A DNA stretch of 64,000 bases, from the NCBI GenBank assembly GCA_033439255.1, contig CM065886.1, positions 1,798,001-1,862,000 of the forward strand, read 5' to 3'. The notes under the pieces were generated by a model. The model saw only the letters and a list, made by a program, of their open reading frames with translations. It ran no database searches and had not been told where the DNA came from. This DNA is from Hericium rajendrae (Eukaryota; Basidiomycota; Agaricomycetes; Russulales; Hericiaceae). Numbering within the stretch: the first letter of the stretch is position 1; every line of letters begins with the position of its first letter. A program made the translations under genes and the position numbers. Shown here piece after piece: positions 24,143 to 55,479 of the stretch.

Positions 24143-26555
24143 ATGTTTCAAGATATCAACCTAGAAGAAAGGAAATATCCCAACAGAACCTTAGTAAAAC
24201 CTAGCAAAGACACTGCCTTTGTGAAGGCTCTAAATGCTTATATGAGCAGATTTGAACCTGTTGAAGAGAATGTAAGTGACTTGATCTGAATGTTTATAAT
24301 CTGTTCATAATTTTATAATCAATACCAGCAAATTCCTCAGCTAGATAAAGCATCAGCTCAAGTAAATTTAATTCTCTATATGTGGATAATGATTACTTAT
24401 AAATATGTGTTAGTTGGAACAGGAACAAATTTTCATGCCAGCTTATAATCCTGTTACAAGGCAAAAAATCATGGTGCCATATCAACCAGTCATAATGGCT
24501 GGACAAGTCAGTGTTTATTCAGTAATTTAATGCTGTAAAACATGTTGACAAATTTTTATAGGATCATTTTCAATTAGACTTTGGAAAAAAGTTACAGAGA
24601 GCTTTGGAAGACTCTTTGATTGATGGTGTTCCTTGCATGAGCCTTCCTTGTTCACATGATGAAGATATTCAACCTCAAGATTCTGATACAAGATCTTCTG
24701 TCTATGTTTGCACTCAGAAGGACTTTGCTTCATTCAATGCTCAGACTATTCAAAAAATCTTTGCACACAGACATATTCTGATCTGTGATCAGGAGAACAA
24801 TGCACCCTGGAAATGGGACTTAGATTCTATGGGCAGACTTGGTAACTTATATGAGAGGGTTGATGTCCAAGGTACTGCAATCCATTTTCTGTCAACTGAT
24901 TTTGCTTATAAATGTCAAATCAGATATGGCATACCGAAGTTCAGAGAATGCCAGTGCTCAACTGAGGGTTGGAACTCGCTTGGACATCTGGAAAGCTGGC
25001 ATTGGTCATGTCAATGTTGATATCCTCGATGCTGATGAGTCATGGTACAAGAACAAGATCATCAATGGTTTGACAAATCCTTGCAGGAATGATCTGGTGG
25101 ACATTCCCAATTTCAGGTAAAACTTTATTTTTCTACTGTTGCATTGTATTTAATTCTGTTTTGTACCTTTGCAGAGGTTTGGCTACACATGAACAGGTCC
25201 TGCTACATATAGAGGCCGAGTTTGGTCTTGATTATCAACCACGCCCTGTGACAGATCTTTTCTGGGCCACTACAGCTACCGTTCACTCCATTTCTGATTT
25301 TCATCAGGATACAGATGGTCTTGGAACTATCTCCAGGCCACTGGTTGGTGAAAAGCTTTGGGTTCTTTTGACTCCCAAGGACTCAGCCGACAATGACCTT
25401 AGTCAAGTTGAGATCTACAGTGATATTGACGTGCGAGAGATAGACTTGAGTGATTATTGGGCTGAGGCCATTTTACTCAGTCCTACAACCACTCTGTGAG
25501 TTTTTTTCTATGTAGTAATACTTGAAAGAAGCTTACATTATTTTAGGGCTCAAATTTCAGGAGCCTTCCATTGGGTGTATGGTGTTACCAATACCATTGT
25601 ATTTGGAAAGCATTTTTATGCTCAAAGCACTCTGGCTCGTAGCTTCTATGGTCAAGTTCACTCTCAAATTGCTGGTCACTATTTGACAAACACCTCTCAT
25701 CCTGCTGTTCGCCCTCTTCTGGCCAACTTTGTATCCTGGTGGGCTAACACCATACTACATCTTGAAGAAAGAGATATCCCTTCATATGGTAAGTGATTTT
25801 GTAGCCTGTAACTAACAAGATCTAAATTTAAATTTGTCTTTAGCTGAGATACCTGAGCTTAACACAAGAGCAGGCATGGAGATATTCTTAGCAGCATCAA
25901 ATGCTGTTGTTTTCTCAGACACTTTATCCATTGAAGAGGGAAAGAAAAGCATGATCCAAAGGCAGAAATGATCAGAATTCATAACTCTCTGTGTCTCACC
26001 AATCTTCTTGATCATTATCTTGCCACAGGCCATCCAGTTTCTCATGCACATAATCCACTGCATTTTTTCAAGATGGCCAACCTGCACTTTGCCAAGGCAT
26101 ACATAACCTACAGTCAGAACCTTGATGACAGTGCTGCATCTGAAGCCTCTAAAGATGCCCACCCTGCTCCCAAGAGGTTATCTACACAGGATTTATATTC
26201 ACATCTCAGAGGAGATCTCAAACGGTTCTGGGGACAAGACCACCTCTCAAATCTATTGGATACCTGGTGGGTGGATGATCAACCAGAGCCAGTTCTTAGC
26301 ATGATGTGTCCCTTGGAAGAGGAAGGAAACTGGATCATGCCAGAAGGATGGGTTCCTATCAAGGTTGAAACTGCCTTTTCTTTCATTAGAGATTTGAAGG
26401 GAAAAGGAAAGAGGAAGGCAGTTCCAGTGGATAGTGAGCCAAGCAGTTCTGAGGAACCTGGTATGAGTTCTGAAGATGAAGAGGACAAAGAAGTTGAAGA
26501 GGAGGATGAAGTAGCATCTGGGAGAACTAGATCTAGCAAAAGGCAAAAAGTTTGA
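24143..26555 (+). CDS. JmjC/cupin-like dioxygenase domain protein
   Basis: Exons 24143-24271, 24329-24361, 24414-24506, 24562-24871, 24924-25116, 25175-25495, 25547-25798 and 25844 onward join in phase. The catalytic-looking region is HSISDFHQDTDGLG (HxD) followed by LVGEKLWVLL and, across an intron, GAFHWVYGVTNTIVFGKHFY (distal His). This order matches JmjC-like proteins common in Agaricomycetes; metal binding and substrate are inferred. At about 25945 in an A-rich run the frame must shift one base to continue as KAEMIRIHNSLCL to the stop at 26555; otherwise the protein ends at 25967. The C-terminus has an acidic run and a basic SSKRQKV end. A second, broken copy of the 3' part lies at 33609-33803 plus 49583-50061. 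Confidence 0.6.
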
Positions 26556-28075
26556 TGTAGAATTGAATAATAGCTGTGTTTTTATATATACAATGTTGAA
26601 AACCAATGTCTCATCACTAGGTAAATAGTAAAGTCACAAGTAGGCTACATAGACTGCTGTAGAACAGTGAGAACAACACACTATGTTCAATTAGGGTTCG
26701 ACAGAGTACACTCCCAGCTGACAGTAAGTGCAACCAATGGGTGCTGATCGAAGGCCCTTTGATGAGTCTGCCACCCTTGCTCCTCATTCTAACGAAGCAA
26801 CATTCTCAAAACAAACAGTATCCCAAAATGTCCCATGAATTTAGCACAGCGTGGTGAGATACATATACATTGGATGGTGCCAACACACAGAGAGGGGGGG
26901 GAGGAAAATCCAGAGCGGGCCAAGCATCCAGCCCTCGCTTTCAGCCAGAAGACTGGCTGGATGGGAAGGGATTGAATTCATTTTGTATGAGCACGCGGCA
27001 GTCAGGGCATTCAGTGTAGGCACTGTTTTATTCACCAAAAGAATCAGCCACAGCTTCACACAGTTCCGCCACCACATGCCACTCACGCTTGGTCAGTCCA
27101 GCCAGCCCCGGCCTCGTTAGCGACAATAACGCTCCCTAGTCCTTCTGCATCTTGGACATATGTATCCACAACCGTCAGGGCCTCAGGCTGGAGGAAGCCA
27201 TGTTTAATGAGGTACCGCACTAGCATCCGGGCCCAAGTCCTGCAGCCTACTGCTTGCTTTTGTGCACAGCTCCAGTAAAATGTGTCCAAACGATGCATAT
27301 TGATGACGTTCTCTATGTCATGAAGGGTTATGGGGGCATTTGTGCACGGAAGGGGTTTGTAGGTATCACAAGGCTTCAGCATTTCAGTTCGCAGCTTGTT
27401 GGAGCCCTTATTAATGGCCATGATGCTGCAAGTTCTCATGATCAGTGGCCCAGCCTGCAATGATGGAGTGGATGGCCTGCTGACCTGACTTCCGATGTTG
27501 GTTGTCCTGATCTGAGGCTTGCGCCGCTGCACACATCGATGGAGACACCCGGGAATGGCTTTAATTTTGGTTCAAAGTCACCTGTTACCGACCTGTTTTC
27601 TTGTCAGCTTAATCGAAGGCCAGGATACACTAACACAAATGCACCAGTGTACAGGATGGTTGACCTCCTTTGTGCTCGAGAACCCGCCCCAGAACAGTGT
27701 TCTAAAGGGCATGTGGCCGTAATTCACAGCTTTATTATCAACGCTGCCTACGGCGATCTAAGCTCTGGGTGAGTACCAGTATCATTAGATCAACATAGCA
27801 TGTGTGCTCAAACCTTGGTCTCGATCTGGGTAGGTTGTTTCCAAGGCTGGGCCCAATGAGGGCTTGCCCATGGTTTGAGTGGGAGGACACCTGGTGCAGA
27901 TATGCTGTCGGTGGGTATGGACATGGGGGAGTGATAAGTACCAGGCTGCGTCGAGCAGCGGGCCCTATCGACAACTGGACGCATGCGACTTTCTGCCCTA
28001 TTCTAAGCTGGCCCAGCTCAATCTGGCTCAGGCTTCTAAGCCGCTCTCCATCCACTCAGCCTTCTCATGATTCTA
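26093..28075. repeat. arm 1 of long inverted duplication
   Basis: This segment, from the JmjC-like coding end through the region to 28075, is repeated in inverted orientation as arm 2 (32108-33803, then 49583-49694 and 49904-50061). Arm 2 carries several insertions that arm 1 lacks, so arm 1 is the empty-site reference for three of them. Within it, at about 26691, lies a TAGGGTTCGACAGAGTAC end that resembles the TIR of the element at 29629-31511. Confidence 0.93.
27083..27532 (-). CDS. hypothetical 149-aa ORF, copy 1
   Basis: An uninterrupted frame from MQRRKPQIRTTN to GAGWTDQA. I recognise no domain. The inverted copy at 32630-33079 keeps the same 149-aa frame with about fifteen amino-acid differences and no stop or indel. 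That suggests either recent duplication or selection to keep it open. It lies within the inverted duplication between the JmjC-like gene and the kinase pseudogene. Introns were not needed. Confidence 0.45.
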   Translation of the reverse strand: MQRRKPQIRTTNIGSQVSRPSTPSLQAGPLIMRTCSIMAINKGSNKLRTEMLKPCDTYKPLPCTNAPITLHDIENVINMHRLDTFYWSCAQKQAVGCRTWARMLVRYLIKHGFLQPEALTVVDTYVQDAEGLGSVIVANEAGAGWTDQA

Positions 28076-28255
28076 GCTCCGGATGTTTCAGACATTCCGT
28101 GATCACATGGTCTGCCTTGCGCCCTTTGAAGGGCTGTCTTCACCGGGCCGATCTCCGGACGCATGGTTGATTGATTCTCTGGATGCATGGCACCGAACTC
28201 TGTGTGTGTATATCTCCATTAATCAGTCCACAAGGCTATCATCCGATCCTCCTCC

Positions 28256-32107: not shown

Positions 32108-32629
32108 TAGAATCATGAGAAGGCTGAGTGGATGGAGAGTGGCTTAGAAGCCTGAGCCGGATTGAGCTGGGCCAGCTTAGAATAGGGCAGAAAGTCGCAT
32201 GCGTCTAGTTGTCGATAGGGCCCGCTGCTCGATGCAGCCTGGTACTTATCACTCCCCCATGTCCATACCCACCGACAGCGTATCTGCACCAGATGTCCTC
32301 CCACCCAAACTGTGGGCAAGCCCTCATTGGGCCTAGCCTTGGAAACAACCTACCCGGATTGAGACTAAAGTTTGAGCACACATGCTATGTTGATCTAATG
32401 ATACTGGTACTCACCCAGAGCTTAGATTGCCGTAGGAAGCGTTGATAATAAAGCTGTGAATTACAGCCATGTGCCCTTTAGAACACTGTTCTGGGGGGGG
32501 TTCTCAAGCACGAAGGAGGTCAACCATCCTGTACACTGGTGCATTTGTGTTAGTGTATCCTGGCCTTAGATTAAGCTGACAAGAAAACAGGTCAGTAACA
32601 GGTGACTTTGAACCAGAATTAAGGGATGT

Positions 32630-33079
32630 GTGCAGTGGCGCAAGCCTGAGATCAGGACAACCAACATCGGAAGTCAGGTCAGCAGGCCATCCACTCCATC
32701 ATTGCAGGCTGGGTCACTGATCATGAGAACTTGCAGCATCATGGCTATTAATAAGGGCTCCAACAAGCTGCGAACTGAAATGCAGAAGTCTTGTGATACC
32801 TACAAACCCCTTCCGCACACAAATGCCCCCATAACCCTTCATGACATAGAGAAGGTCATCAATATGCATCGTTTAGACACATTTTACTGGAGCCATGCAC
32901 ACAAGCAAGCAGTAGGCTGTGGGACTTGGGCCCGGATGCTAGTGCAGTACCTCATTCAACATGGCTTCCTCCAGCCTGAGGCCCTGACGGTTGTGGATAC
33001 ATATGTCCAAGATGCAGAAGGACTAGGGAGTGTCATCATCACTAATGAGGCCGAGGCTGGCTGGACTGACCAAGCATGA
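32630..33079 (+). CDS. hypothetical 149-aa ORF, copy 2
   Basis: Inverted copy of the ORF at 27083-27532, same length and start (MQWRKPEIRTTN), no stop or frameshift, about fifteen amino-acid differences. Function unknown. Confidence 0.45.
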   Translation: MQWRKPEIRTTNIGSQVSRPSTPSLQAGSLIMRTCSIMAINKGSNKLRTEMQKSCDTYKPLPHTNAPITLHDIEKVINMHRLDTFYWSHAHKQAVGCGTWARMLVQYLIQHGFLQPEALTVVDTYVQDAEGLGSVIITNEAEAGWTDQA

Positions 33080-33608
33080 GTGGCATGTGGTGGCGGAACT
33101 GTGTGAAGCTGTGGCTGATTCTTTTGGTGAATAAAACAGTGCCTACACTGAATGCCCTGACTGCCGCGTGCTCATACAAAATGAATTCAATCCCTTCCCA
33201 TCCAGCCAGTCTTCTGGCTGAAAGCGAGGGGCTGGATGCTTGGCCCGCTCTGGATTTTCCTCCCCCCCCCTCTCTGTGCGTTGGCACCATCCAATGTATA
33301 TGTATCTCACCACGCTGTGCTAAATTTATGGGACATTTTGGGATACTGTTTGTTTTGAGAATGTTGCTTCGTTAGAATGAGGAGCAAGGGTGGCAGACTC
33401 ATCAAAGGGCCTTCGATCAGCACCCATTGGTTGCACTTACTGTCAGCTGGGAGTGTACTCTGTCGAACCCTAATTGAACATAGTGTGTTGTTCTCACTGT
33501 TCTACAGCAGTCTATGTAGCCTACTTGTGACTTTACTATTTACCTAGTGATGAGACATTGGTTTTCAACATTGTATATATAAAAACACAGCTATTATTCA
33601 ATTCTACA

Positions 33609-33803
33609 TCAAACTTTTTGCCTTTTGCTAGATCTAGTTCTCCCAGATGCTACTTCATCCTCCTCTTCAACTTCTTTGTCCTCTTCATCTTCAGAACTCA
33701 TACCAGGTTCCTCAGAACTGCTTGGCTCACTATCCACTGGAACTGCCTTCCTCTTTCCTTTTCCCTTCAAATCTCTAATGAAAGAAAAGGCAGTTTCAAC
33801 CTT
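33609..33803 (-). pseudogene. 3' end of JmjC-like gene, copy 2 (split by Plavaka)
   Basis: Encodes KVETAFSFIRDLKGKGKRK through the basic SSKRQKV end, nearly identical to 26363-26555. Upstream codons continue at 49583-50061 on the far side of the 15.8-kb insertion. Confidence 0.92.
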
Positions 33804-33829
33804 CATCAGTACTCTTACAAACTTTCTGG

Positions 33830-34255
33830 CCATGTCTGATTGCACCTGGAAGCAAGATTCAGACAAGTCAGGTAGCCAGGCAGGGTGCAGTCCTACAGAA
33901 CCAATCAGATTTATATCTGGCCTCAGATTTTACTTCTGGTCTCAGGTTTCATGTCTGGCCTCAGATTTTATATCTGGCCCCAGATTTCATGTCTGGTCCC
34001 AGATTTTATGTCTGATTTCAGATTCAGATTTGACCACAGATTAAAGTCTGACTACAGATTTTATTCTTAGTGCAGTTTCAAGTCTGATATCAGATTTATA
34101 TCTAGTACCAGATTTATGTCTGATACCAGATTTATATCTGATATCAGTTTCAAGTCTGATATCAGAATTATATCTGATATCAGTTTCAAGTCTGATATCA
34201 GAATTATATCTGATATCAGTTTCAAGTCTGATATCAGATTATCACACTCAAGTCA
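33830..34255. repeat. left subterminal repeat array of the Plavaka element
   Basis: Repeated CAGATTTATATCTG-like and TATCTGATATCAG-like units, short and partly palindromic, about 18-40 bp apart. CACTA-like elements typically carry such arrays as transposase binding sites; binding here is inferred. Confidence 0.8.
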
Positions 34256-34401
34256 CATCAAAATGAGAAATAACTGCATCTCTAAATTCAGCAGATTAGG
34301 AGAAGTTGTAAACTAAACAGTGTGATCAAAAACTCAGGAGATAGGCATGGGATAGAAGAAGCATGAAGAGAGATAAGAGAAAAGAAAAGACTAGACCAAT
34401 C

Positions 34402-37400
34402 TCAATCACTGAGGCTGCCACTCTGCAGTAAATGACGCTGATGAGATCCTGGTGAGTCTCCTACAGTATGAGCAGGCTCTTCCCCATCAGGCAAGAAATC
34501 TGCAGCCTTGGTATAAATCAGACGCCACTTAGCAATATCCATGCCTTTGCAAATATCCGACCATTGCTTTGTTGGCGTATGCCAACGCTTTGTTGAAAAC
34601 CACCCCTCGGATCGCCACTTAAGCTTTGGATGATCAGCAGGCTGAAACAGCAAGTGGCGCAATAAGGCACGCTGAAGCTAAGACAAAATTAGCAACCAGT
34701 CAATTAAGTAAAAAGAAACTCACTGCAGAAAGAGTCAGAGCCATAGCACCAATAGGGGGCTCCTTCCGACGAAGATGCTTGGGAAGAATAGTCATGTTGA
34801 CATGGGCTTTTGCAAAAGCCTGGACAACGATGTTGGAAAGGAATGCACCATGAAATTCCTGAAAGAAAAATTAGCTTGTGAATTCAGAGCAAAATTGAAC
34901 TCACAAGGCCACTACTGTCAGGTCTAGTATCAATCTGCTGATACAAGAAGGGGATGTGCTGATCCTTCTCCAAGCTTTTCAAACCAAGAGCAAGACGAGC
35001 AACATCATCCTTAGCAATACCATCAGGATCATTATGTGTTGAGGAGAACCGATACATGAAATCGGATGCAGCATTGATAGCTTCAGTTGCGAAGCCACTG
35101 CGCCATTCATAAGTCCGTTGTAAAACCTATAAAGATATCAGTAAGACATTCAGAAAAATAGAAAAGACTTACCACAGCGAAGACAGCCTCATGTCTGGCC
35201 TCAAGCTTGTGAGGAATATGAGGGAATATCTTGTCCCAGAGCTGCTGCGCAGGATCGAGAAGATCCTGCGTCACCCAAGGATCACTCCGCGTACCTAGAT
35301 ACTCCCTCCACATATGTATATAGAACTCGTTCCACTTGCTGAGGCATCCCAGTGGCAAATCGGCATTGCTGTACGTCATCCGTCGAGTCCTGCATTCACT
35401 AAGCTCATCCTCGTCGTCATCCTCAATGTCTGAGCCCACTTGCACAAAATCGGCTGGAGAGGGAGGGCCTGACGGCTTTGGCGTAGGCGGCACAACGGAC
35501 TGTGCAGCAGTAGTGGAAGCATGGGCATGCTACGAAAATATGAGTGTATAATAACAAACAGACTTGTAAGAATATAAATGTACATCACAGATTGTACATG
35601 TACATACCGTAAGGTGTATCACGTTGCTGCGCGATGGACCTGGAGTCTTTGGTGGGGCAATGGGCTCATCATAGATGATTGGGTCAATCCGTACAGTCTG
35701 CGAGAAAGATGAAGGTACATCAGGAAGGTTGACAACTTTCTGCTAGACCTGCGAGCAATCTGAGAGCATCTGAGAGCATCTGATTGACCTGCAGATTTTC
35801 TGATCTTGTCTGACAAATAAATCAGACACTCTCAGATAAGATCAGAAAATTTGCAGGTCAATCAGATGCTCTCAGATGCTCTCAGATTGCTCGCAGGTCT
35901 AGCAGAAAGTTGTCAACCTTCCTGATGTATCAGCAGTACACGTAGAATGAGAGATAATGCATACCTTTTTACTAAACAGTTGCTGGCCCGGAGTTTCGAG
36001 TGAGCGAGAGCCTGCGCCGGGTGTCTGTGTCCCTCGTGAACCTTGCCTGACAGGGTTGCGAGGACCAGGGATTCCAATGCCTTGTTCACCAAGGAAAGAT
36101 GGTGTACGACTTGCAACGTACGCGGTGAGATCCAAGCCGGGTGGGGGAGGCTGATGTTTCGAGGTAGATCCTCGATAACCTTGAAGATCCAAGTCCTGTG
36201 CCAGTCCGGAGGCACCATGAGAGGCCGTGGAGGGAGTACGAGAAGCTGTGGAGGGAGCACGAGAGGCCGTGGAGGGAGCATGAGAGTTCATGGAGGCAGC
36301 ACGAGAGGCTGTGAAGGCAGGGCGAGAGGCCGAAGCCACGGCTCCTGGGCGAGAGGTGGAGGCAGAGCTGGAGGTGGAGGCAGCAGGGCGAGAGGCCGCG
36401 GCAGCACAAGAGCCAGGTGCGTGAGGTGGAGGGCTCCAGGAGTCGAGATCTTGCAGCTCGGAGGCAGCACGATTGACGGCCCGGGATAAGTGACCTTGCT
36501 GCATAGGAGTTTCTTGACATGCTGGTGGTGCTGGATATCCCGAAAAGCGAGGCAGGGGTGTCCAAGAGTCGAAATCATGCTGTCCGGAGACAGCATGACC
36601 AGGAGATGCAGCAGATGAGAGGGAGGGGTGCGAGGCTTTGCATGTGGGCACGGAAGATGATTCGGCACTGCCGTATTCGATTCTAGCATAGGTCTGTAAT
36701 GTAGATTTTAGTAGAAATGAACACGAAAATATGAAGTGATGACATACCGTTCCAGCCGCAACGGGCTGCTCATACTCCTCCCGGGCCTTACCTCCCTCTG
36801 TATCTCTCTCAGGCTCCTCAAAATCATCTAGAAATTTGAAAGCAGCTCCCGCGTAGCCTCGTTCGACGGGAGGTTCTTCATGATTGATCCTGGAGGCAGA
36901 GGCACCAGCCTTGGTTTGCCACATCAGGAAGGTTGACAACTTTCTGCTAGACCTGCGAGCAATCTGAGAGCATCTGATTGACCTGCAGATTTTCTGATCT
37001 TGTCTGACAAATAAATCAGACACTCTCAGATAAGATCAGAAAATTTGCAGGTCAATCAGATGCTCTCAGATGCTCTCAGATTGCTCGCAGGTCTAGCAGA
37101 AAGTTGTCAACCTTCCTGATGCAGGTTGAAGTGAAACTGGCCTTGGCTGATTTTGTCGCAGAAGTCGCTGTTTCGACTCTGCGAATGGCGCGCCAAGTGA
37201 TGTGGAGTGCAAAAGAGTCGTAATCCGGTCGAAAGAGTGGACAAAAGGTTTGCATAGTAGAGATTTGATGAGTGGGAAGGAAAGTGGCAGTAAGTGGATG
37301 CTCGTATGAACGATAAGGAAAACTTACTGATGAGATAAGATAAGCGCTGCCTCATGCTGAGCGCGCTGCTCTCGGACCAAGTCTCTCATCTTCTCCTTCT

Positions 37401-39382
37401 TCTTCTGACCCCTACCCCCTTCCTTTGACTTCTGGTCCTTGCGGCCGTTATCGTTACCCTTACCCTTCGATATCGCAGCCTTTCGCTGCGGTTGCTTGCC
37501 TTTCTTCATCTTCGGCTGCTCGTTCTCGCTCACCTCGGCCATCTCGACATCTGATCCCTCGACGGCGGGCGTTTCTGGTTCGTAGCTCGGGTCCGCGCAG
37601 GAATTGTCGCCAGACTCTGCTTATTTCGGGCTTCAGGTGAGTAATTGGTCTTCAATATGTGGAATATATTGACTTACCTTGTTCTATAGCAGCTCTCTTC
37701 CGCTTCTTCAGCCTCATCTGCTGTTCCAACTCCTTCATTCCCCAGTTTTTCTTGCTCCTCCGTGTTCCATACTGCGTGGGATATTCATCGGTATCTCCTC
37801 CCACCGGTTCCTCCCCCCCGTGCTCCTCGTTCTTCGCAACTTCTTGTTAGCTTCGCCGTCAATCTCGACTCTGGCACTTCAACTCACATCCACTTCCATT
37901 CGATCCTCGCTATTTGCTCAGCCTTGCGATTCCGTTGCCCGTTCTTTACCTTCTGCTTCGTTATCTTGGTGAGTCCCTGATATCCTCGAAGCGAATTCAT
38001 TCACAATTCGTTAGTACTTACTGTTGTTCACTACATCAGGAACCCTTACAACTTTCTGATGCATCTGATTCTGTCTGATTCAATCTGATTTCAATCTGAT
38101 TGATCTGATTTTTCAAGAAATACATATTTGAGAGTTGAAATATAAACAGTTACAATATTTTATCTTTTATATATATAATACATAGCTCAGAAGTCCTTTA
38201 AAACATTTTTCAGATCAATCAGATTGAAATCAGATTGAGTCAGACAGAATCAGATGCATCAGAAAGTTGTAAGGGTTCCTGATGATAGCATCATTGTCCG
38301 AGTCCGGACCACCGGCGTACGTGGGCCACGCCATCTTCGCTGCCAGTGGTTGCTTTGCCTTCGAAGGCAAAGCTGCTGGAAGTTCTTCAAGGTATTTCAT
38401 GGTAAGTCAATATGTTTAAATCACTGAATACGATACTGACCTTTCTCCTCCATCGAATCTCGTCCACGTTTGCTCCCTCGACCCCGATCGACTTTGATCA
38501 CCACCTCCGGCATGTACATCAGGAAGGTTGACAACTTTCTAATTGACCTGACAATTTCTAACCCTACTGACAGCTCCTGATTGACCTGATCCACCTGAAA
38601 GCAATCTTAACAGGCAAATATCTGATCAAACTTTTACATTTAAGTAAAGACATTTATTGTCAGATATATAAGTTTGTAATCTCTAACTAATAGATATAAC
38701 AAAATTTCTGATATCTGAAATTTTCTAAATCTGAGAGTGTCTGATCTGAGATTTTTTTTCAAATCTGGAGGTCAAATATCTGAAAATTATCTGCAACTGT
38801 CTGAGAGCATCTGATGGTGTCTGACACTGTCTGATCCATCTGACTGATATTTGACCTCCAGATTTGAAATCAGACACTCTCAGATTTTCAAAAATTTCAG
38901 ATATCAAAGATTTTGATATATCTATTAGTTAGAGATTAAAAACTTATATATCTGACAATAAATGTCTTTTCTTGAATGTAAAAGTCTGATCAGATATTTG
39001 CTTCCCAAGATTGCTTTCAGGTGGATCAGGTCAATCAGAAGCTGTCAGTAGGGTTAGAAATTGTCAGGTCAATCAGAAAGTTGTCAACCTTCCTGATGTA
39101 CTTGCTCGGGCGCTTCGTACCCGGGCGCTGACTTGCCTTCTCAGCGGTGGCGGCGTCAACTGCGCGCTTCGTTGCCTCGAACTGGCCGATTCGGGTGGCA
39201 GCTTGCAGTGTAGCCTGTTGCTCAGCCTCATTGCACGCCCGTCTTTGCTCTGCTGTCATGGCCTTCTTGGTCATCTTGGGTTTCTTCTTCGGAGGGGGTC
39301 TCGGGAGCTCATTGTCTGAGGGTTGCTCTACCAGGGCCGGTAGGTTGTGAGTATTGTTTCGAGATTTCGAGCGGGTCTCCAT
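34402..39382 (-). CDS. accessory gene of the Plavaka element, unknown function, four MITE insertions
   Basis: The minus-strand start METRSKSRNNTH (39380-39382) leads through at least ten exons to the stop at 34402. The N-terminal half is charged and low-complexity (Lys-rich coiled-coil-like, then Ser/Ala/Pro-rich repeats such as STASRAPSTASR). The C-terminal domain holds LGCLSKWNEFYIHMWREYLG, LQRTYEWRSGFATEAINAAS and GLEFHGAFLSNIVVQAFA. These recall a large family of unnamed Agaricomycete transposon-associated proteins; I cannot name a function. MITEs interrupt exons at 39098-38517, 38284-38034 and 37121-36922, and an intron at 35927-35718. Deleting each MITE with one TSD copy restores the frame, apart from one spare base at the 38034-38284 site. 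Divergent transcription from the transposase suggests a shared promoter region. Confidence 0.62.
35718..35927. mobile_element. fold-back MITE M4 (~210 bp)
   Basis: CATCAGGAAGGTTGACAAC ends, TA duplication (35716-35717, 35928-35929). It lies in an intron of the accessory gene, between the GTATGCATT donor and a CTCGCAG acceptor. Nearly identical to M5. Confidence 0.93.
36922..37121. mobile_element. fold-back MITE M5 (~200 bp)
   Basis: CATCAGGAAGGTTGACAAC ends, CA duplication (36920-36921, 37122-37123). It splits an exon of the accessory gene between codons reading FHFNL and WQTKAG. Confidence 0.93.
38034..38284. mobile_element. fold-back MITE M6 (~250 bp)
   Basis: CATCAGGAACCCTTACAAC ends. 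The left flank is TA; the right flank is TA after one extra base, so the duplication is slightly imperfect. It splits the codons DSDNDA and SEQQ of the accessory gene. Confidence 0.88.
38517..39098. mobile_element. fold-back MITE M7 (~580 bp, sister of M1)
   Basis: CATCAGGAAGGTTGACAAC ends, TA duplication (38515-38516, 39099-39100). It splits the first exon of the accessory gene; removal gives SKYMPEVV in frame. Near-identical to M1. Confidence 0.94.
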
Positions 39383-41908
39383 TCTAACAAAAGAGTTGTA
39401 GGTTATTAAGAGGGAGGGTGTCGTAGGTAGCTGGTAGTGCCAGAAGACAAAGTCGAACAGTACGACGCGACGTGTGAGTGACAGCCAAGTCACACTCGGG
39501 CACGGTGGACCAAGTCCGGTGACAGCCTCCTACTAGGACTCTGACTCTCTGTGCTTGCTCGGCAAACAGCAGCTCATTTGCTCACCGAGTTGTTTCGGGG
39601 CTTTGATGCTAGTATAAAATCTGATCTAGTATTGCTCGAAGTGCTCGAAGTCACTGCTTGACAGATATCAAGTCTCACTCGTGCATATCTCTGTGCTCAA
39701 CGGCCCATATTAGTGAGCCTCTTGTGCATATCTTGGAGCTCAACAGCCCATACTTGCGAGTTTATTGTGCACATCTTGGAGCTTGACAAATATTGATGCT
39801 TCGAGTCTGTCTTGTGGACATTATTACTGGATATCACTGATAGTAGCTGGACTTTGGTGCTACAAGTTTATATCTATTATTGAATTGTGTGGATCTCTGT
39901 TGCTCTTGAGTGACTATCACTTATATGCCTGTCATGCCATCAGGCTCAAGATCTCATAGTCGGGCATCTCATAGACCTCGCAATTTCGCTTGCCCGACAC
40001 CAATATCTTGGCATTGTCGTCGAGGCTTTATTACTCTTGGAGGATTAAGGCAGCATGTTGAATCTGTTCATCCATTGCTGAATATTGCAGAGATATCTGC
40101 AGAGACTTTGTCATACTCTCATGAGCCTACTGCTACTGCTTTTCAAAATACTGGGGATTTCTTTCTTGGTTCTAATACTACTAGTGATTCCAACACTTCT
40201 GCTGGTAGTTCCAGAGACTCTGCTGGTCCTGGCCATTATACTCATCCTGATCTTGATGGTCGACCTTGTGATGCATATGGTACTGATTTGCCTTCAGGTG
40301 CATTGCCTTTCAATCTTGCAGAGCCTAATATTAAGTCTGCTAAGGATTGGTCACCATTTCAAGATCGTGTTGAATATACAGTTGCAGATTTACTGTTTCG
40401 ATGAGGACAAAATTCAGAGAGTTTTACAAATGATTTAATGGATGCATAGGCTGCAGATCATGATGGAAAATCTCCACCATTTGCAATTCATAAAGATATG
40501 CTGAACACAATTGATGCTATTTCATTTGGAGATGCACCCTGGCTACATTTCACTGTAAAATATAAAGGCCCTATACCTGAAAAAGATTCACCTGCATGGA
40601 TGTTTGCTGATTATGATGTGTGGTATCGAAATCCAAAATATGTGATTCAAAATCAATTGTCCAATCCTGATTTCAAAGATGAGATTGATTATGCTCCACG
40701 GAAAGACTATAATGCCAAAGGCAAGAGAGAATGGTCAGATTTTATGACTGGAAACTGGTCATGGCGTCAAGCAGATAAAATTGCAGAAGATCCTGAGACT
40801 CATGGATCTATGTTTGTACCTGTTGTTTTGGGTAGTGATAAAACTATTGTCACTGTTGCTACAGGTCATACAGAATACTATCCTCTTTATGCATCTATTG
40901 GAAATGTGCATAACAATGTTCGCCGTGCTCATCGTGAAGCTGTTAGCATCCTTGGATTTTTAGCAATTGGAAAAACAGATAAGCAATATCAAGGTAGCAT
41001 TCCTTTTCAAAAATTCAGAAGGCATCTTATGCATGAGTCACTCAAAGTTATCTTGGAACATTTACGACCAGGAATGACTACACCAGAAATAGTCCGTTGT
41101 CCTGATGGACATTTTCGAAGAGTAATCTATGGAATTGGACCATATATTGCAGATTATCCTGAACAGTGTCTAATGTGTGGAATTGTTCAAGGCTGGTGTC
41201 CTCATTGTACATGTCAACCCAAGGATTTAGATGATGGTGATGGTTTACTAAGATCACATGAATATACCTGTATATTGATGAGAGAGCTTGATGAAAAACA
41301 ATTGTGATATGAATATGGTATTGTGGCAGATATCATGGTATGTAGCATTCTTTAAAATGTTTAGTATTATTTGAATCTAATTTAACTCTTTTTATAGCCA
41401 TTTACACATTCTTTCCCTCGTGCAGATATTCATGAACTTATCTCTTTGGACTTGCTTCATCAGCTTGTCAAGGGAACATTCAAAGATTACTTGGTATCTT
41501 GGGTTTTTGAATATCTTGAACTTGTACATAGACCAACCAAAGCACATGTGATTATGGCAGATATTGATCGAAGAATTGCTGCTGCACCTGCATTTCCAGG
41601 ACTTCGTCGATTTCCTGAGGGTCGTAACTTTAAACAATGGACAGGAGATGATTCTAAAGCTCTGATGAAAGTATTCTTGCCTGCTATTGATGGTCATGTA
41701 CCCTCACAAATGGTTAGAGCAATCCGTGCATTTTTGGATTTTTGCTACTTTGCTCGAAGAGATATTATTGATGAGAACACTTTGGATGCTATGGATATTG
41801 CTCTTGAAACATTTCACAAAGAACATGTAATTTTTGAAGCTGTTGGTGTTCGTCTAAAAGGAATATCTCTTCCTAGACAGCATTCATTGAAACATCATCA
41901 TCCTTTAA

Positions 41909-42331
41909 TGTCACGGATCGCTCCATTTCTCTCCGCCTTCTTCTCTGCCATCAAGGCATCGCGTCGGTCATGTGCTCCAGCAGCCCCATCACATGTTCAC
42001 TTCCTCACATGACCTGGGGCTATCCTTCACCCATGCCCTTGTTCCCCTTTGGGACATCCTATTGTTCTCCCCCCCATTGTTCTCCTTTTGGCCACCATTG
42101 TTCTCACTCTATTGTTCGACCCGTTATGGTGTCCATTGTTCTTTTCCCATTGTCGTCCCAGTACTTATAGGCTCCCTGTCGCTCGCCTATTTCCCTAGAT
42201 TGTTCATTTTGTCTGTACCGTACTGTACCTCCAATACAGGTCACTGCGCTGCTAGTCGCTCTCTGCTCTCTCGCTCCCATCATCGCTGGTGACTTGGGTG
42301 GTTCTCTGCTGTCTACGACCGAGTCTCGACA
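41909..42331. mobile_element. solo LTR in the Plavaka transposase gene
   Basis: The 423-bp segment begins TGTCACGG, ends CTCGACA (TG...CA), and is flanked by TTTAA on both sides (41904-41908, 42332-42336). Deleting it plus one TTTAA joins KHHHP to LIEEFAVPNG, the expected Plavaka sequence. No internal retroelement genes remain, so it is a recombination product of an LTR retrotransposon. Confidence 0.9.
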
Positions 42332-44044
42332 TTTAATTGAGGAATTTGCAGTGCCAAATGGACTTTGCACTTCTATCACAGAATCAAAGCATATAAAAGC
42401 AGTTAAGGAGCCTTGGAGGAGATCAAGTGGCTATAATGCTTTGGGACAAATGTTGCTCACAAACCAAAGACTTGATAAGCTTAAAGCATGCACAGTAGAC
42501 TTTATACAGCGTGGCATGTTGAGTCAACCTTTAGGTTCAACTCAAAGTAAAAGTTTAGACTCTGAGTCCACTGTTAAACCTCTGCATTTTCCAATGGAAA
42601 TCAATGAAGTTGTACTTAGTGATAACTTTGGTCAACATATTAGAATGGGTGTTAAATTGGCAAAAACACATGCACGAGGATATCCTCGAACACTTGATCA
42701 AATTGCTCAATCAATTGGCAGACCAAATTTGTCTAATTATATTCGACAATTTTTATTTGATCAAACAAATGTTACTGCTGGTTATACATCACTTGGTGAA
42801 AGAGGGCCGATGCTTCGCACGGCAATACGATTCCTTTTTCATTGTTAGTTATATTTAGAAACAGTGAATAAATGATGTAAAGTCTCACTTGTCAGATTGA
42901 TTATAAATCTCTATAAAATATATAGCTACCTCAAGGTCAACATCTGAGAAATATGTCACTGGTATATAACACTATATTAGCTACATAGCTTTCTTAGGTC
43001 TATAGCTGTCCTCTCTTATACATAGCAGTCAAGTAAACTATGCAAAGCTATCATAGCTTGTCATAGCTGTCATAGCATAAGGCATAAGCTATCATAGCTA
43101 CCATAGCTACCATAGCATAGGGCATAAGCTATCATAGCTGTCATAGTTATTCTAGTATAAGATAACTATGGAAGCTATATTAACTATATAATATATCTCT
43201 ATCATTATATTATATCTAGCTAGTAAGATTTCTATCTACTCTATATTACTTCTATCAAATATGCTAAAATAGCATATAAAATAAATATATTATAGATTCA
43301 ATAGTCTGATGTCTTACAGTCACAAACATCGAAAATTGGATAAATTATATTACTCAAACAATTTCATTACAAAACATTACTATAGCTACAGAGACTACTA
43401 CAGAACTACAAAAGGTAACAAACTTACAATGACTACAAAAAGCAAAAGATACAAATAAGAAAAGACATGAGTATTAGAAGATAACAAAGATAATATATGA
43501 AGACTTACCAGATTAGCAAAAAAGCGAAAATCTACAAGACAATTTGAAGACATTAGTATAAGTTATAAGATAATTAAGAATAACAGCATACCTTTAACAA
43601 CAAAGAGAACAATAATAATAAAATGAGCAAACGACAACGACGAGTGAGCAAATGATGACGACGAGTGAGCAAACAATGACAAGTGAGCAAACAATGATGA
43701 CAAATGTGTCGATGTGGCAAGGGATGGTGGGGGTTAAAGAGCAAGAGGTAAAGCACATCGCACCAGCCTTATATAGGAATCCCAGACGGAACTGAGATTT
43801 GTGGTTGCTGGGCACTTGCCGAGTGTTGTGACAGAGACTGGATGCCAGACTTTACTACGTTGATGCTGCTGCTCACAGATTCACAGTCCAGTAGATACAC
43901 AGTGTTCTCATACATTCTAATTAAATGTATAATCTATCACTGTCCCTTTTTTCATTGAATTTATACAAGTTTATTTGATTTGCTGAGGCTCGAGCAACAA
44001 AGCTTCGCTTGTTCGGTAGCTGAAGCACCAAGTTTAACATGTCA

Positions 44045-44175
44045 AGACTTCACTCCTTTTTACCAGTCTCCCTTCCCCTCCTTCGTGTTTCCTCCTCCAG
44101 CCTCCTTCCTTCCATTTCTTTCGTTCTCTATCACGGCTGAGATGGTTTTTTTAGCAGATACTTAGAGGGCCTTAG
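44045..44175 (+). promoter_or_regulatory. promoter-like pyrimidine tract and splice-donor-like leader
   Basis: A long CT-rich run (CTCCCTTCCCCTCCTTCG...) is followed by AGGGCCTTAGGTGAGT, where GTGAGT looks like a donor. The arrangement recurs at 51725-51870 and, diverged, at 29800-29895. Pyrimidine tracts just upstream of start sites are common in fungi. Transcription is inferred. Confidence 0.35.
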
Positions 44176-44279
44176 GTGAGTAAAAAAAAAAGCCTCTTAT
44201 CATTTGTTCGTACTAATCAAGAGAGTGTCACTCGTTTTTCGAGTGACACTCTTGATATCTTTTATTCTGTTGACCTCAC

Positions 44280-45850
44280 ATCCCCGTGCTACCATCCTAC
44301 GATCCCACCATCTTTTTTGCACTCTCATCGCCCCTTCCTTGGCCTGTCTACGTCACATCCACGCCCCGCGTGCAGCTCGTACACCTCATGCCTGACTCCA
44401 ACAGGCTGCGACCCCTGCACATGCCTCCGACCACCATCCCCTTCCATGTGCACCAGTGTGCACAAGGCCACAGCGTGTGCGCATGCATGTACCACGTGAC
44501 ATCATCTGCGTGATGTCAACGACATATGCACACGGGCCATGTCATCGCCCATGCTCCACGTCCGTGCATGTGCATGCGTCGTAGTCCCGTTGCCATGGCA
44601 ATGGGACTCGGACGTCGTTCATGCCTATTGGCCACAACCCCGCATGCTTGCCTCAATCCCCGCAAGGCCTCGTGCTTGCGTTCAACACCGTGCATGCTTG
44701 CAACGTCCTGTCCGCATGCTCAAGCCCCCACACCCATTCACAATGCCCTGCGCCTGCTCACAATGTCTCTGGACATGCGCGCCATGCCCGGTTGCATGTA
44801 TGCTCCTACACCTGCTCAACTCAACATGCCCCGCATGTGTGCGCAATGACCTGCACACATCAGGAACCTTCAAAACTTTCTGTTTGACCTGCGAGGCATC
44901 TGACAGTGTCTGCATGATCTGCAGCAGTTGCATCAGACACATCAGACACTCTCAGACAGCATCAGCTTCTCTCAGCTAGCTGCAGAATATTTGACCTCAA
45001 GATTCAAAAAAGTATCAATGCAGAATGCTTGCAGACTGATCAGAACTGATCAGATTCATATAAATTTTAGATATTGAAAACTTTGTTGCATGTAATGATT
45101 AGAGTTGGATGACTACTATATCTGCCAATAGTTATTGACTTCAAAATATAAAATCTCTGATCAGAAATTGTCCTTTAATTAGAGCCTGCAGCTGAATCAG
45201 GTCTTGCAGTTGATCAGACTCTGCAGTATCCATCAGAAAGTTTTGAAGGTTCCTGATGCAGGTGCACGACAACCACACATGTGTGACGTGCCATACAGTG
45301 CCTCTTCATGCATGCAGAATGTCCCGCACGCCCGCTCCAGGCCTCCCGCACATGCTTGACACCCGTGCATGCCCGACATCCCCTGCACATGCCCAGCTCT
45401 GCCTCCACATGTGCACAGATACCAGCGCATGGCGGCACTGCAAGACCCCATCCCACAACAACGCATGCACGACACCCAGCATTCGCACTCAATGCCACTT
45501 GCCTACAACGCCCTGCATGCGTGCATGCTCCCGCATGCTCACTCAACACCCCGTACCCTCCAGATGCTCTATGTACATGCGCAACATCCCACGTGCATGT
45601 ACATAACCTGCACGCATGCACAGCAGCCCTAACCCCATTTGTGGGCATGGCCACCCGCACACAGCTACACATGGTCTGGCTTGCCGTGCATGGACCATGT
45701 ATGCTGTGCGTGGCCCACGCCTACCCCTGTGCCCTCCATGCTGGCATTCGTGCATGCCATGCCACCTTTTGTGTGCACATGCTGTCTTTGCACCTGCACC
45801 TGCACCCTCCATGGCAACTTGCGTGCCCTCCGCATCCTGTGCCCTACGCA
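44280..45850. other. C-rich GCATGC island in E1
   Basis: Strongly biased sequence dense in TGCATG/GCATGC and CCCGCA words, open in several frames on both strands, which is the signature of composition and not of a gene. Its copy in E2 is at 52000-53580. M8 is inserted at 44858-45258. It may be a transcribed non-coding region because it follows a conserved promoter-like tract. Confidence 0.6.
44858..45258. mobile_element. fold-back MITE M8 (401-bp subfamily)
   Basis: CATCAGGAACCTTCAAAAC ends, CA duplication (44856-44857, 45259-45260). E2 at 52574-52575 has the undisrupted CTGCACAGGTGC, a direct empty site. Sister of M2. Confidence 0.95.
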
Positions 45851-46189
45851 GTAGCTTGACTAGCTTACATATGTATGGTAGTAGATTTATTACAATTTAA
45901 TATGATAAATTCTGACTTGTAATATCTGGTGCTTATCTGACTTGTGGTAGTAATCATAGGCATCATAGTAGCCATAGCACACCTTGTTAATCATGATAGC
46001 CCTATGTATATCAGACTACAGGCTATGGAGGCTATGATAACCCTATGAATGTCACACTGTCTGCTATGTAGGCTATGATAGCTCTCATAACTCTACATAG
46101 CTGGATAAGCAAACTTCATAGCTCTGATAGCTCAATGATAGCACCTATAATGTAACTTGCAGCTATGTCAAATTCAAATTTCTCAGATG

Positions 46190-46660
46190 AAGATCTTGAA
46201 AGGAAGATCTCAATTTCGAGTTTTGATTTTTGAGTTCTGGATGGCATGGGGTCTATGTAGCATGGCTGGAAAGCGATTAATCAGCACATTCAGGCCCAAT
46301 TTAGAATGAGTGAATCGGTGGAGAACTGCCAGACTTACCTCAAGGTCAAGATCTTGGGGGGGGAGATCTCAGTTTCGAGTTTTGATTTTCGAGTTCTGGG
46401 CAGATTGGGGTCTATGTAGCATGTCTGGAAAGCGATTAATCAGTACATTCCAGTGCATTTTAGAACAATTAAATCGGCAGAGAACTGCCAAACTTATCAC
46501 AAGGTCAAGATCTTGGGGGGAAGATCTCAGTTTTGAGTTTTGATTTTCGAGTTCTGGGCAGATTGGGGTCTATGTAGCATGTCTGAAAAGCAATTAATTA
46601 GTACTTTCCAGCCCAATTTAGAACGAGTGAATCGGTGAAGAACTGAGGGACTTACCTCAA
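46190..46660. repeat. ~158-bp tandem repeat, about three units (E1)
   Basis: Units share GAGTTTTGATTTTCGAGTTC and GTCTATGTAGCATG, spaced about 157-159 bp. The same unit occurs about nine times in E2. Confidence 0.9.
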
Positions 46661-47231
46661 GATCATTCAGATGATGATGATTGGTTGATTGCTCACCAGG
46701 CAGATAGTCTATCACAGCTCAGAAGACATGAACTGGAAGCAGCTGTCAATGTGGTTTTGACAAGCTCTAATACATATTGGTTTGTGCAAGATTCAGAGAC
46801 TTATAAAGAAATTAGTCTGCCAGCTCAGCAAGTGAGATACATACAAGACGACCAAGGTGAGCCGCCGGGTCGAGTACCTCCTGGTTCCAAACTGTCAACC
46901 ACTCAGCGGATGACTTGGAGATACCCGTCGAGCCTTGCAGCCAATATGACAAGCATGCAGGATGTAAAGCTCATAAAGAAGTAAGACTTTACTGCTGGTG
47001 CTTCAAAACTGAAATTTTGATTATATAATCAGTCTTCAAAACCATAGATTCATAGGCATTTCTGTACTTATAATATACTATAAGAGTAAACATTGTACTA
47101 ATGCTAATTGCTCATTGATTATATCATTTTTAGTATTAAAAAATATCAAAAAAGTCTGGCATGAACTGGAATTGAACTTGCAAACTCAAGAGAACCACCG
47201 AGTTTTGATTATGTAATCATCATGTGATCAC

Positions 47232-47304
47232 CACCATGGTACGGCCGTACCATGGTGAATGACACGTGACCACCTTCACCATAGTATGGCCATACCATAG
47301 TGAA
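47232..47304. repeat. palindrome with CGGCCG core (copy 3) and degenerate neighbour
   Basis: Perfect core 47232-47257 (half-site CACCATGGTACGG); a related palindrome with half-site TTCACCATAGTATGG lies at 47275-47304. CACGTGAC lies between. Confidence 0.9.
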
Positions 47305-47439
47305 GCACTGCTGCATTGAAGCTCATACTAAGACTGAATCTTTCAACAGTCATTAAATGATTTGATCACATAGTATATTGCTATATAGTATATATACTTA
47401 TTAAGCATGCTCAATGTATACTAAAAATGATTGAGCAAC

Positions 47440-48045
47440 ATAAATCACAAAACCAAGTTTTTGTGTGAGTTCTACATGGATCATAACACATAAAATATGA
47501 CTAGAAAGCAATAAATGAGTAGCATCTGATCCACTTGAGAACAAGTGAATCGGTGAAGAATTGACTAAGATAGCTAAGGATCAAGCATACTAGCAGAAAA
47601 AATACAGAAGTGCTTTGTGTTCTACGAGTTCTGCATGGATCAAAATGCACAAAATATGGTTCAAAAGCTATGAATGAGTAGCATCTGATCTACATGACAA
47701 CAAGTGAATCGATGAAGAATGAACTGAGATAACTAAGGATCAAGCATACTAGGAGGAGAAATACAGAAGTGCTTTGCATTCTACAAGTTCTGCATGGATA
47801 ACACACATAAAATACAGCTAGAAAGCGATGAATAAGTAGATTCTCGTGCACTTGAGAATGAGTGAATCGGTCAAGAACTGACTGAGCTAGCTGGGAATCA
47901 AGCATCCTAGGAAAAAAATACAGGAATGCTTTACATTCTGCAAGTTCTGCATGGATCAAGATGCATAAAATATGACTAGAAAGTGATAAATGATCAGATT
48001 TTGATGCATTTAAGAATGAGTGAATTGGTCTGACCAAGTTACAGT
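47440..48045. repeat. diverged ~160-bp tandem repeat (E1)
   Basis: Four units with AGTTCTGCATGGATCAA-like starts at about 47466, 47625, 47789 and 47946, and a shared AGTGAATCGGTGAAGAA-like segment. The layout parallels the 46190 array, so both probably descend from one repeat. Confidence 0.82.
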
Positions 48046-48069
48046 AAACAAAGTGTAAAAGAAAAAGTT

Positions 48070-48150
48070 CGGCCAGAGCTGGAATTGAACCTGCAAACTC
48101 ATCAGATTGAAGATGTGTGATTATATAAGCCAACTGCCTAATGGGCATAG
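48070..48150 (-). ncRNA. tRNA-like pol-III promoter segment (copy b)
   Basis: On minus, A-box-like TTAGGCAGTTGG and B-box GGTTCAATTCC; followed by a T-rich run. Lies about 50 bp from the terminal hairpin of E1. Confidence 0.5.
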
Positions 48151-48762
48151 TCATCATTTGCATGTCGTTTTCACTATGAAAAGGCGGTATAGAGTAAACG
48201 ATTCTAAGGAATTGTAATTAAATGTTGATATTTCAAAATGTCCAATGGCTCCAGATAAACTCAATATATATCACTCTGCAACAGCCACATATTATGCACC
48301 TAGTGATCCATCTGATATAAAGGGTGTTCATCAGCATCGCATTCGATCATCACGTGAATGGTATGGAAATTATCCTCGTCAAGACTGTGTCTTTATTAAA
48401 AATGATCCAACCTTACTTGGAATGAGAGGACTTTATATTGGACGAGTGCTACTTTTTTTCTCATTTGAAGATGAGGAAATTACTTATTCATGTGCCTTGA
48501 TCCAATGGTTCATTCCTGTTGGTGATGCACCTGATGAAGATACAGGAATGTGGATAGTAGAAAGAGAAGTGGATGAAAATGGAGAATTTGTTTGTTCAGT
48601 AATACATACAGACTGTATTCTGAGAGGTGCTCATTTGATTGGTGTTTCTGGACAAGAACTTATTCCTATCAGCTTCAAGCATGTCTATTCTCTTGATGCC
48701 TTTGCTTCTTTTTATGTTAACAAATATTCTGATCATCATGCCTTTGAAATAGCCTTCTAGCC

Positions 48763-49019
48763 TTCAATGTACTAGTACTGTTATAGAATTTTAAATTATG
48801 TGATTAGTGCTTCTATTTAACTAGTATTCACCATAGTAGAGTCATTTTTACACTGTAAAAAATTGATGTAAGTCAATATTTCATTTGTAACTTGTTAACT
48901 CATTTCAAGTTCATTTTATTTGATAGTATCAAATAAGATAAGATAGTAAGTATGAATATGAGAAATGGAATTCATATATAGTACAAATTGTAGTTAGTAG
49001 TTCTTTTGTCAAAAAATTA
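48763..49019. other. 3' flank of the Plavaka transposase gene
   Basis: AT-rich, no gene; presumably 3' UTR and spacer before the subterminal array. Confidence 0.5.
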
Positions 49020-49582
49020 TATCTGCCTGATCTGTTTAACAATATAAAATCTGGAAGATATCCAAAATCTGACTGTGTCTGAGAGACTATACCCTGCTTG
49101 ATCTATCTGACAGCATAAAATCTGGAAGATATCTAAAATCTGGAAGATATCCAAAATCTGATTATATCTGGAAGATTACACCCTGCCTGATCTGTCTGAC
49201 AGCAAAAAATCTGGAAGACATCTAAAATCTGACTATGTCTGAGAGACTACACCCTGCCTGGCTGACCTGACAAGAAAAAAAAATCTGGAGAACATTCAAA
49301 ATCTGAAGAACATTCAAAATCTGGAGAAAATTCAAAATCTGGTGAACATTCAAAATCTGACTGTGTCTGGAAGACTACACCCTGCCTGATCTGTCTGGCA
49401 ACAGAAGATATTTCAAATCTGACTAGGTCTGGGTGTAAATGCATATCTGATAAAATCTGACTCTACCTGACTTGCCTGATTTTGTTTGTGGCCAGAAATG
49501 ACCAATCTGTCAGGTATATAAGGTGATCAGACAAGATCAGACAGAATAAGATCCAGCAGAAAGTTTGTAAGAGTACTGATGT
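49020..49582. repeat. right subterminal repeat array of the Plavaka element
   Basis: Repeated units containing AAAATCTGGAAGA and GACTACACCCTGCCTGATCT, spaced roughly 60-110 bp, ending in the right terminal inverted repeat. The sequence differs from the left array, which is usual for CACTA-like elements. Confidence 0.82.
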
Positions 49583-50061
49583 TGATAGGAACTCATCGTT
49601 CTAGCATGATCCAGTTTCCTTCCTCTTCCAAGGGGCACATCATGCTAAGAACTGGCTCTGGTTGATCATCCACCCACCAGGTATCCAATAGATTCATCAG
49701 GAACCCTTACAACTTTCTGACTGTCTGATTCTATCTGATTCTAATCTGAGTCTAATCTGATTGAATCTGATTGAATCTGACTGAATCTGACTGAATCTGA
49801 TTGATCTGTAATCTTTTTACAGATAAATCAGATTTCAATCAGATTTCATCAGATTCAATCAGATTAAAATCAGACCATCAGAAAGTTGTAAGGGTTCCTG
49901 ATGTTTGAGAGGTGGTCTTGTCCCCAGAACCGTTTGAGATCTCCTCTGAGATGTGAATATAAATCCTGTGTAAATAACCTCTTGGGAGCAGGGTGGGCAT
50001 CTTTAGAGGCTTCAGATGCAGCACTGTCATCAAGGTTCTGACTGTAGGTTATGTATGCCTT
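49583..50061 (-). pseudogene. JmjC-like gene fragment, copy 2 (distal)
   Basis: Inverted copy of about 26093-26362, reading AYITYSQNLDDSAASEASK and DHLSN, interrupted by MITE M10 (49695-49903) and ended by MITE M11 at 50062. Sequence upstream of this part of the gene probably continues past the window's end, beyond M11. Confidence 0.92.
49695..49903. mobile_element. fold-back MITE M10 (~209 bp)
   Basis: CATCAGGAACCCTTACAAC ends, TT duplication (49693-49694, 49904-49905). The empty site is at 26250-26251 in arm 1. Near-identical to the outer element at 63184-63685. Confidence 0.96.
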
Positions 50062-55330: not shown

Positions 55331-55479
55331 TTAGAATAATGATAATTGGTTGATTTTCAACTAGGCAGATAGGCTAGCATAGCTCAGAAGGCCTCATCTG
55401 GAAGCAGCTATCAATATCATTTTGATAAGCTCTAATATACCTTAGTTGGTATCAGATTTAGAGACCTATAAGTAAATTA

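Follow-up and report, generated by a model that had tools for sequence, protein, structure and literature searches.

A Plavaka-type transposon of Hericium rajendrae with a divergent partner gene and an empty target site nearby

Plavaka transposons, the naming of which is credited to Iyer et al. (2014, via PMC8290104), account for a substantial share of the DNA transposons in at least one mushroom and have been called understudied (PMC8290104). For KDZ and Plavaka elements, the terminal inverted repeat (TIR) motif has been characterised in a study of Marasmius oreades (PMC8290104), and in 2025 a group named PlavakaB was defined by CATCA..TGATG termini together with target-site duplications (TSDs) of 2 or 3 bp, with the motifs of the transposase group given in the order D, D, C(2)C, H(3-4)H, E (PMC12730594). 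In the Spm/En system, the subterminal repeats are bound by TNPA while TNPD acts as the transposase, and both are needed (PMC2613891). The present analysis concerns a stretch of 64,000 nucleotides of the basidiomycete Hericium rajendrae (GenBank assembly GCA_033439255.1, contig CM065886.1, positions 1,798,001 to 1,862,000 of the forward strand), referred to as the window, and a Plavaka transposon found within it at 33804..49581 on the plus strand; positions are those of the window unless a contig is named. The reading favoured here, to which a probability of roughly 55% is given, is that of a decayed two-gene PlavakaB cut-and-paste transposon with a conserved partner gene of the DUF6532 kind, proposed as a TnpA-like factor.

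An earlier annotation of this stretch made by a model (the original prediction) had presented the CATCAG termini with a 2-bp duplication as a new end structure for Plavaka. Since PlavakaB ends had already been published in 2025, the end structure is not new, and the window element, which shares with that group a PF18759 transposase, CATCA..TGATG termini and a 2-bp TSD, is a further PlavakaB member (PMC12730594). The arrangement of its genes seems to be undescribed. The accessible text on PlavakaB, supplement aside, does not mention a second conserved gene such as is present in the window element, and that on the Plavaka families of M. oreades, which were defined by PF18759 and a TIR motif as here, does not mention a partner gene (PMC8290104). 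No description of a conserved Plavaka partner gene was found in those parts of the Plavaka, DUF6532 and CACTA literature that were consulted, supplements aside; in two Ganoderma species Plavaka and DUF6532 appear, unlinked, in one list of extra domains (PMC8955403). Further resemblance is seen to En/Spm and other CACTA elements. Their DDE transposase carries C-x2-C and H-x3-H motifs, and they have subterminal arrays differing between the two ends and a short target duplication, all as in the window element, as well as a second protein, which is proposed for the window element. Unlike the CAC..GTG termini of CACTA elements, however, those of the window element are CATCAG..CTGATG. TnpA and TnpD of Spm come from a single transcription unit, whereas the partner in the window is encoded by a gene of its own, which is divergently oriented and not known to be related to TnpA.

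Limits of the element and its transposase gene

The element is 15,778 bp long, of which about 7.1 kb consists of nested insertions. Its left TIR of 25 bp (33804..33828, plus strand) reads CATCAGTACTCTTACAAACTTTCTG, and the right TIR of 25 bp (49557..49581, minus strand) is its exact complement, with base 26 being the first mismatch between the two ends by direct reading and by alignment. The TT duplication was placed at 33802..33803 and 49582..49583 by direct reading and by alignment to an empty paralog. This paralog is an inverted copy of the target (26094..28083, minus strand) and its reverse complement reads CAACCTTGATAGG, containing TT once only (26361-26362). An alignment of the joined flanks against this copy, as had been suggested, matched over about 700 bp with no mismatch in the left 239 bp and scattered mismatches to the right, and the homology of paralog and flank extends to 28083 and 32100, respectively, at 95.4% identity. 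Because an uninterrupted target copy with a single TT stands nearby, the exact ends of the element are established and its boundaries are proven. The perfect TIRs, the duplication and the paralogous empty site of the original prediction were found as described, with the correction that its right end, 49582, lay one base too far and the true right end is 49581. Its JmjC-like label for the target gene was not confirmed, as a Pfam search with that gene gave no match and the only fitting PDB match was KDM7 at E 0.21.

Relatives of the element were found on contig C4 (8,395 bp, one mismatch in the left repeat), on contig C12 (9,188 bp, one mismatch, TSD TA) and, as a partial copy, on contig C3. The Plavaka transposase gene of the window lies at 39934..48757 on the plus strand (the start being approximate) in the pieces 39934-41304, 41398-41908, 42332-42791 and 48218-48757. 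The plus-strand frame at 48218-48757 encodes the C-terminal portion of the transposase itself, because the C12 relative reads through. Two of the exons match PF18759 in Pfam (E 1.5e-103 and 1.7e-13), which bears out the predicted Plavaka transposase. The gene is split by two insertions, one of which (41909-42331) separates the H(3)H motif from the catalytic E, and it carries two in-frame stops at about 40402 and 40447; the window copy is therefore probably dead.

A search of the genome (46.8 Mb in 19 contigs, counts from this search being lower bounds) gave at least 132 Plavaka matches. Among the 43 loci aligned, the motifs occur in the CMC/CMCT order D, D, C(2)C, H(3-4)H, E. The first D was present in 42 of 42 covered rows, the second in 43 of 43 and C-x2-C in 42 of 43; at the later sites the two histidines of H-x3-H were present in 30 of 30 and 29 of 30 and the E in 30 of 30. 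Since the window, L055 and L057 cover the same genes as loci L013, L032 and L033, the latter do not enter the motif and element counts. These CMC-type catalytic motifs agree with the CMC assignment that had been made; an RNase H-like fold related to RAG1/Transib is a further mark of the CMC/CMCT group. Of the C-x2-C candidates in the transposase, the first proved not to be conserved and was dropped for the next, which was.

CATCAG ends and the partner gene across the genome

The window-type end of 19 bases, CATCAGTACTCTTACAAAC, was found at 39 sites (21 forward, 18 reverse), and the general form CATCAG-N11-ACTTTCTG at 848 sites genome-wide. As the backwards-read control has no site in either case, the pattern is not due to chance. 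The ends are modular, with CATCAG followed by an 11-base core varying between subfamilies and by ACTTTCTG. Beyond the window's own pair, the window-type end forms 11 inverted pairs in 20 fetched regions, six of which (five distinct loci) show 2-bp duplications of their own, namely AA, TA, TT, AT and CA. A Plavaka gene lies inside nine of the 13 same-core pairs that are 5-25 kb apart, whereas this number averaged 1.07 and never exceeded 6 when the positions were shifted by 30-300 kb in 2000 controls, so that inverted CATCAG pairs do flank other Plavaka genes, as was predicted. This test covered six cores, one of them at 100 of its 106 places, and the large subfamilies GAAGGTTGACA and GAACCTTCAAA, two other-core rows and ten one-mismatch rows were left out of it. 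In the transposase tree the elements with the window core cluster, except for L055 (its assignment being uncertain), and the TTACA and TTGGA cores fall in one mixed clade; judged from this tree, the core appears to follow the transposase clade roughly. Plavaka genes with other ends, which had been named in advance as evidence that would speak against the prediction, do occur in part, in that the core varies by subfamily and a divergent lineage ends in CATCTGGAAAAAGTGT.

It should also be noted that the window element's ends are shared by a family of about 3.2-3.5 kb (L039-L044 and L046-L048) with mutual identity of up to 98.7%. The three members scanned (L040, L043 and L047) have no reading frame of 110 amino acids or more, and the family consists of recent non-autonomous copies.

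The partner gene, the divergent accessory gene of the original prediction, is a multi-exon gene at 34405..37620 on the minus strand (approximate limits), with a conserved domain at 34405-35529 that is split by introns and shows a sub-threshold match to DUF6532 (PF20149). A Pfam search gave nothing with the first exon set and only DUF6532 at E 0.02 with a fuller set, and the partner alignment, when searched against PDB sequences, returned a single chance-level match (E 0.46). With 300 residues of the C4 relative as query, 89 partner matches were obtained genome-wide and merged to 55 loci; DUF6532 gave 24 matches, 19 of them above cut-off, which merged to 17 loci. Of these 72 partner or DUF6532 loci, 52 (41 partner and 11 DUF6532) stand head-to-head with a Plavaka gene at a distance of up to 15 kb; in 1000 shifted controls the mean was 2.95 and the highest count 9. 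When only DUF6532, a query that was not derived from these elements, was used, 11 of 17 loci were linked (null mean 0.28, maximum 3, n = 1000). Seen from the transposase, 54 of 79 Plavaka loci have a divergent partner. For this linkage test and for the pair test above, 81 of the 132 Plavaka matches were used and merged at 2.5 kb to the 79 loci, and the pieces left out were those taken for second exons or fragments of included loci.

Both genes were found head-to-head in all 14 end-bounded Plavaka elements that were listed, and the distance of the partner match to one of the ends is 0.6-1.8 kb. These elements are end pairs chosen for their Plavaka content, nine with the same core, two with one mismatch and three with CATCT ends. 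The pair of Plavaka gene and partner is conserved in this genome, and the accessory gene belongs to the unit, as had been proposed. In the comparison of the C4 copy with the window, the ratio of nonsynonymous to synonymous substitution rates (dN/dS) came to 0.18 over the 280 codons of the partner domain, to 0.30 in the N-terminal part of the partner and to 0.25 in Plavaka, and at the level of codons purifying selection on the partner domain is shown between subgroups. For the most recent pairs (window with C3, C4 with C12) the ratios range from 0.39 to 3.06, with few changes. Silent-site divergence from the C4 and C12 relatives differs along the element, with dS of 0.47-0.48 in the partner half (33804-39500) and of 0.13-0.18 in the transposase half (39932-49581). 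This gap of three to four times looks as if the halves of the element had been exchanged between subfamilies.

The divergent lineage is represented by copies on contigs C2 and C4 that are 99.7-99.9% identical in their fetched ends, both sides of which stop at CATCTGGAAAAAGTGT. Its ends (CATCTGG) are 16 bp long, its duplications are TC and TG, and its transposase is 35-37% identical to that of the window (37% over 273 aligned residues for the C4 copy, L084). The head-to-head arrangement is the same, with a partner that matches DUF6532 above cut-off, as found at C2:36073, C2:3868544 and C4:1120802. All three proteins in an alignment of partners of this lineage (A2), among them that of the related copy at C2:36073, match DUF6532, with a best E of 7.7e-37, whereas the match of the window partner is weak and below cut-off. 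From these comparisons the window-type partner is likely to be a DUF6532 protein as well. The 16-base CATCT end has 41 exact sites and 67 with at most one mismatch (control 1), and some end pairs join CATCT with CATCA. Several pairs of about 4 kb at CATCWGGAAAAAGTGT sites have one CATCT and one CATCA end (for example C9:1470233-1474308 and C10:165422-169424); they look like non-autonomous relatives of this second lineage.

A proposed role for the partner

Next to the left TIR, TCTGA/TCTGG repeats are arrayed in both orientations at a spacing of 18-19 bp (33829..34260), and next to the right TIR such repeats occur with one orientation predominant (49021..49556). The two subterminal stretches contain 21 and 14 TCTGA sites, where shuffled sequences reach at most 12 and 13, and the density on both strands is 48.6 and 26.1 per kb compared with 2.7 per kb in 3.3 kb of the interior. 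The arrays noticed in the original prediction are thus genuine enrichments. In the favoured reading, the Plavaka DDE transposase would recognise and cut the CATCAG ends with a stagger of 2 bp, which would lead to the 2-bp target duplications. Since TNPA binds such arrays in Spm/En, the partner may be a TnpA-like factor that binds the TCTGA/TCTGG arrays and either joins the ends or keeps the element unsilenced. The nested miniature inverted-repeat transposable elements (MITEs), an insertion resembling a solo long terminal repeat (LTR) and a 5.4-kb insertion have since broken the window copy. The element known to the base, its less damaged relatives, the empty sites and the partner together give a defined two-protein, two-end system that is testable for transposition and that would also offer a first functional handle on DUF6532.

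A wider form of this proposal is held more tentatively, at somewhat less than an even chance. In it, Plavaka as a whole would be two-component, with an obligatory partner of the DUF6532 class, for which no function is known so far, as the fungal counterpart of TnpA on the subterminal repeats, and with partner, transposase and ends as modules exchangeable between subfamilies.

A number of results weigh against the favoured reading. The DNA binding and the role of the partner are a proposal by analogy. The window-type partner stays below the DUF6532 cut-off of 24 bits, the first member reaching 16.5 bits; four of five window-type members match DUF6532 at E of 1 or less, with a best E of 0.0011, and the profile comparison of the two partner groups, based on five and three sequences, is collinear but without significance (prob 0.7, P 0.078). 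Twenty of the 72 partner loci lack the divergent placement, and no partner was detected for 25 of the 79 Plavaka loci; the 52 linked loci are not independent events, as the copies are related, and the partner query was itself drawn from a Plavaka element. Between the window and C3 the dN/dS ratio is 3.06 for the partner domain and 1.23 for Plavaka, with few changes and little purifying signal. At the ends, a matching duplication is missing in five of the 11 other pairs (L041, L044, L046 and the duplicated locus L045/L049), the flanks of the C4 relative, TG and TA, do not match, and four of the 13 same-core pairs 5-25 kb apart lack a Plavaka match. In the transposase, 84 of 485 columns have one residue in at least 97% of the rows and thus equal or exceed the motif residues in conservation, a measure that by itself does not single out the motif.

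The strongest competing explanation treats the divergent gene as a passenger, hitch-hiking or anti-silencing and dispensable for transposition, as is presumed of the TET/JBP genes, which are carried by many transposon lineages including PlavakaB (PMC12730594). An anti-silencing role would equally yield purifying selection on the partner. Cargo would, however, be expected to be sporadic, whereas the place and orientation of the partner are constant in all 14 listed elements, including those of the lineage with about 35% transposase identity. Such a passenger is regarded as rather unlikely, though it deserves to be kept in view.

Insertions within the element and the remaining alternatives

The original prediction had treated the whole 15.8 kb as one unit. 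The outer ends and the single TT duplication do bound it as such, but six nested insertions make up nearly half of this length. Three CATCAGGAAGGTTGACA MITEs at 35718..35927 (TSD TA), 36922..37121 (TSD CA) and 38517..39098 (TSD TA) and a CATCAGGAACCCTTACA MITE at 38034..38284 (imperfect TSD) are missing in the C3 relative. The solo-LTR-like insertion of 423 bp (TG..CA, 41909..42331), with a 5-bp TSD of TTTAA, is missing in C3 and C4, and the unclassified 5.4-kb insertion at 42792..48217, which has no TSD and contains a further MITE (44858-45258), is missing in C4 and C12. Clear duplications of their own are thus present at four of the six segments, three of the four CATCAG MITEs having clean 2-bp duplications and one an imperfect one. 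It is improbable that the whole 15.8 kb moved as one large unit with its contents native or cargo, since the six segments are missing from the relatives at precise sites, and by this comparison the large unit is refuted as the native structure of the element. When the lengths of the nested insertions are subtracted from 15.8 kb, the window element without them would measure about 8.7 kb.

Relatives of the 5.4-kb insertion were detected at 50404-56747 and inside L045/L049. This repeat is about 5-6 kb long (2.2 kb in L045), has internal arrays of units of about 158 bp and shows no target duplication at the three sites examined. Helitrons begin with TC and end with CTRR. Classification of the repeat as a Helitron, considered for its A/T site and lack of a duplication, was dropped because the ends of the repeat differ from TC..CTRR and a third copy is flanked by A on either side.

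Another explanation is that Plavaka genes merely sit in CATCAG-rich repeat clusters and are not mobilised by these ends. Many of the 848 general sites do occur in short pairs, and eight of the ten same-core pairs more than 25 kb apart also span a Plavaka match, as their length would favour. Against this stand the excess of Plavaka genes over the shifted controls in the pairs 5-25 kb apart and the result that none of the 22 short and ten middle-sized same-core pairs contains a Plavaka match. The distance from the Plavaka gene to the end on its side is also near constant, at 2.2-2.7 kb in eight of the 14 bounded elements, and the core roughly tracks the transposase clade, which together make this explanation very improbable. 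Least probable of all is an assembly error at the element or the empty site, for which no support was found beyond the near-identical flanks of the inverted duplication as a setting where misassembly can happen, and against which stand the 11 other pairs formed by the same end, six of them with their own duplications.

The end of the target gene is itself an inverted duplication (26094-28083 against 32100-33803 plus 49582-50061), and the occupied copy is bordered by CATCAG ends, at 32107 and at 50062. A separate CATCAGGAACCCTTACA MITE, also a CATCAG element, lies to the right of the transposon at 49695..49903 with TSD TT and is likewise missing from the empty paralog. A match to the APH family of phosphotransferases (E 4.2e-06) was found on the plus strand at 28223-29113, in the interval that separates the copies of the inverted duplication. 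Elsewhere in the window, 3202-4731 on the minus strand matches the DDE_1 superfamily endonucleases (E 4.9e-13) and probably represents another transposase.

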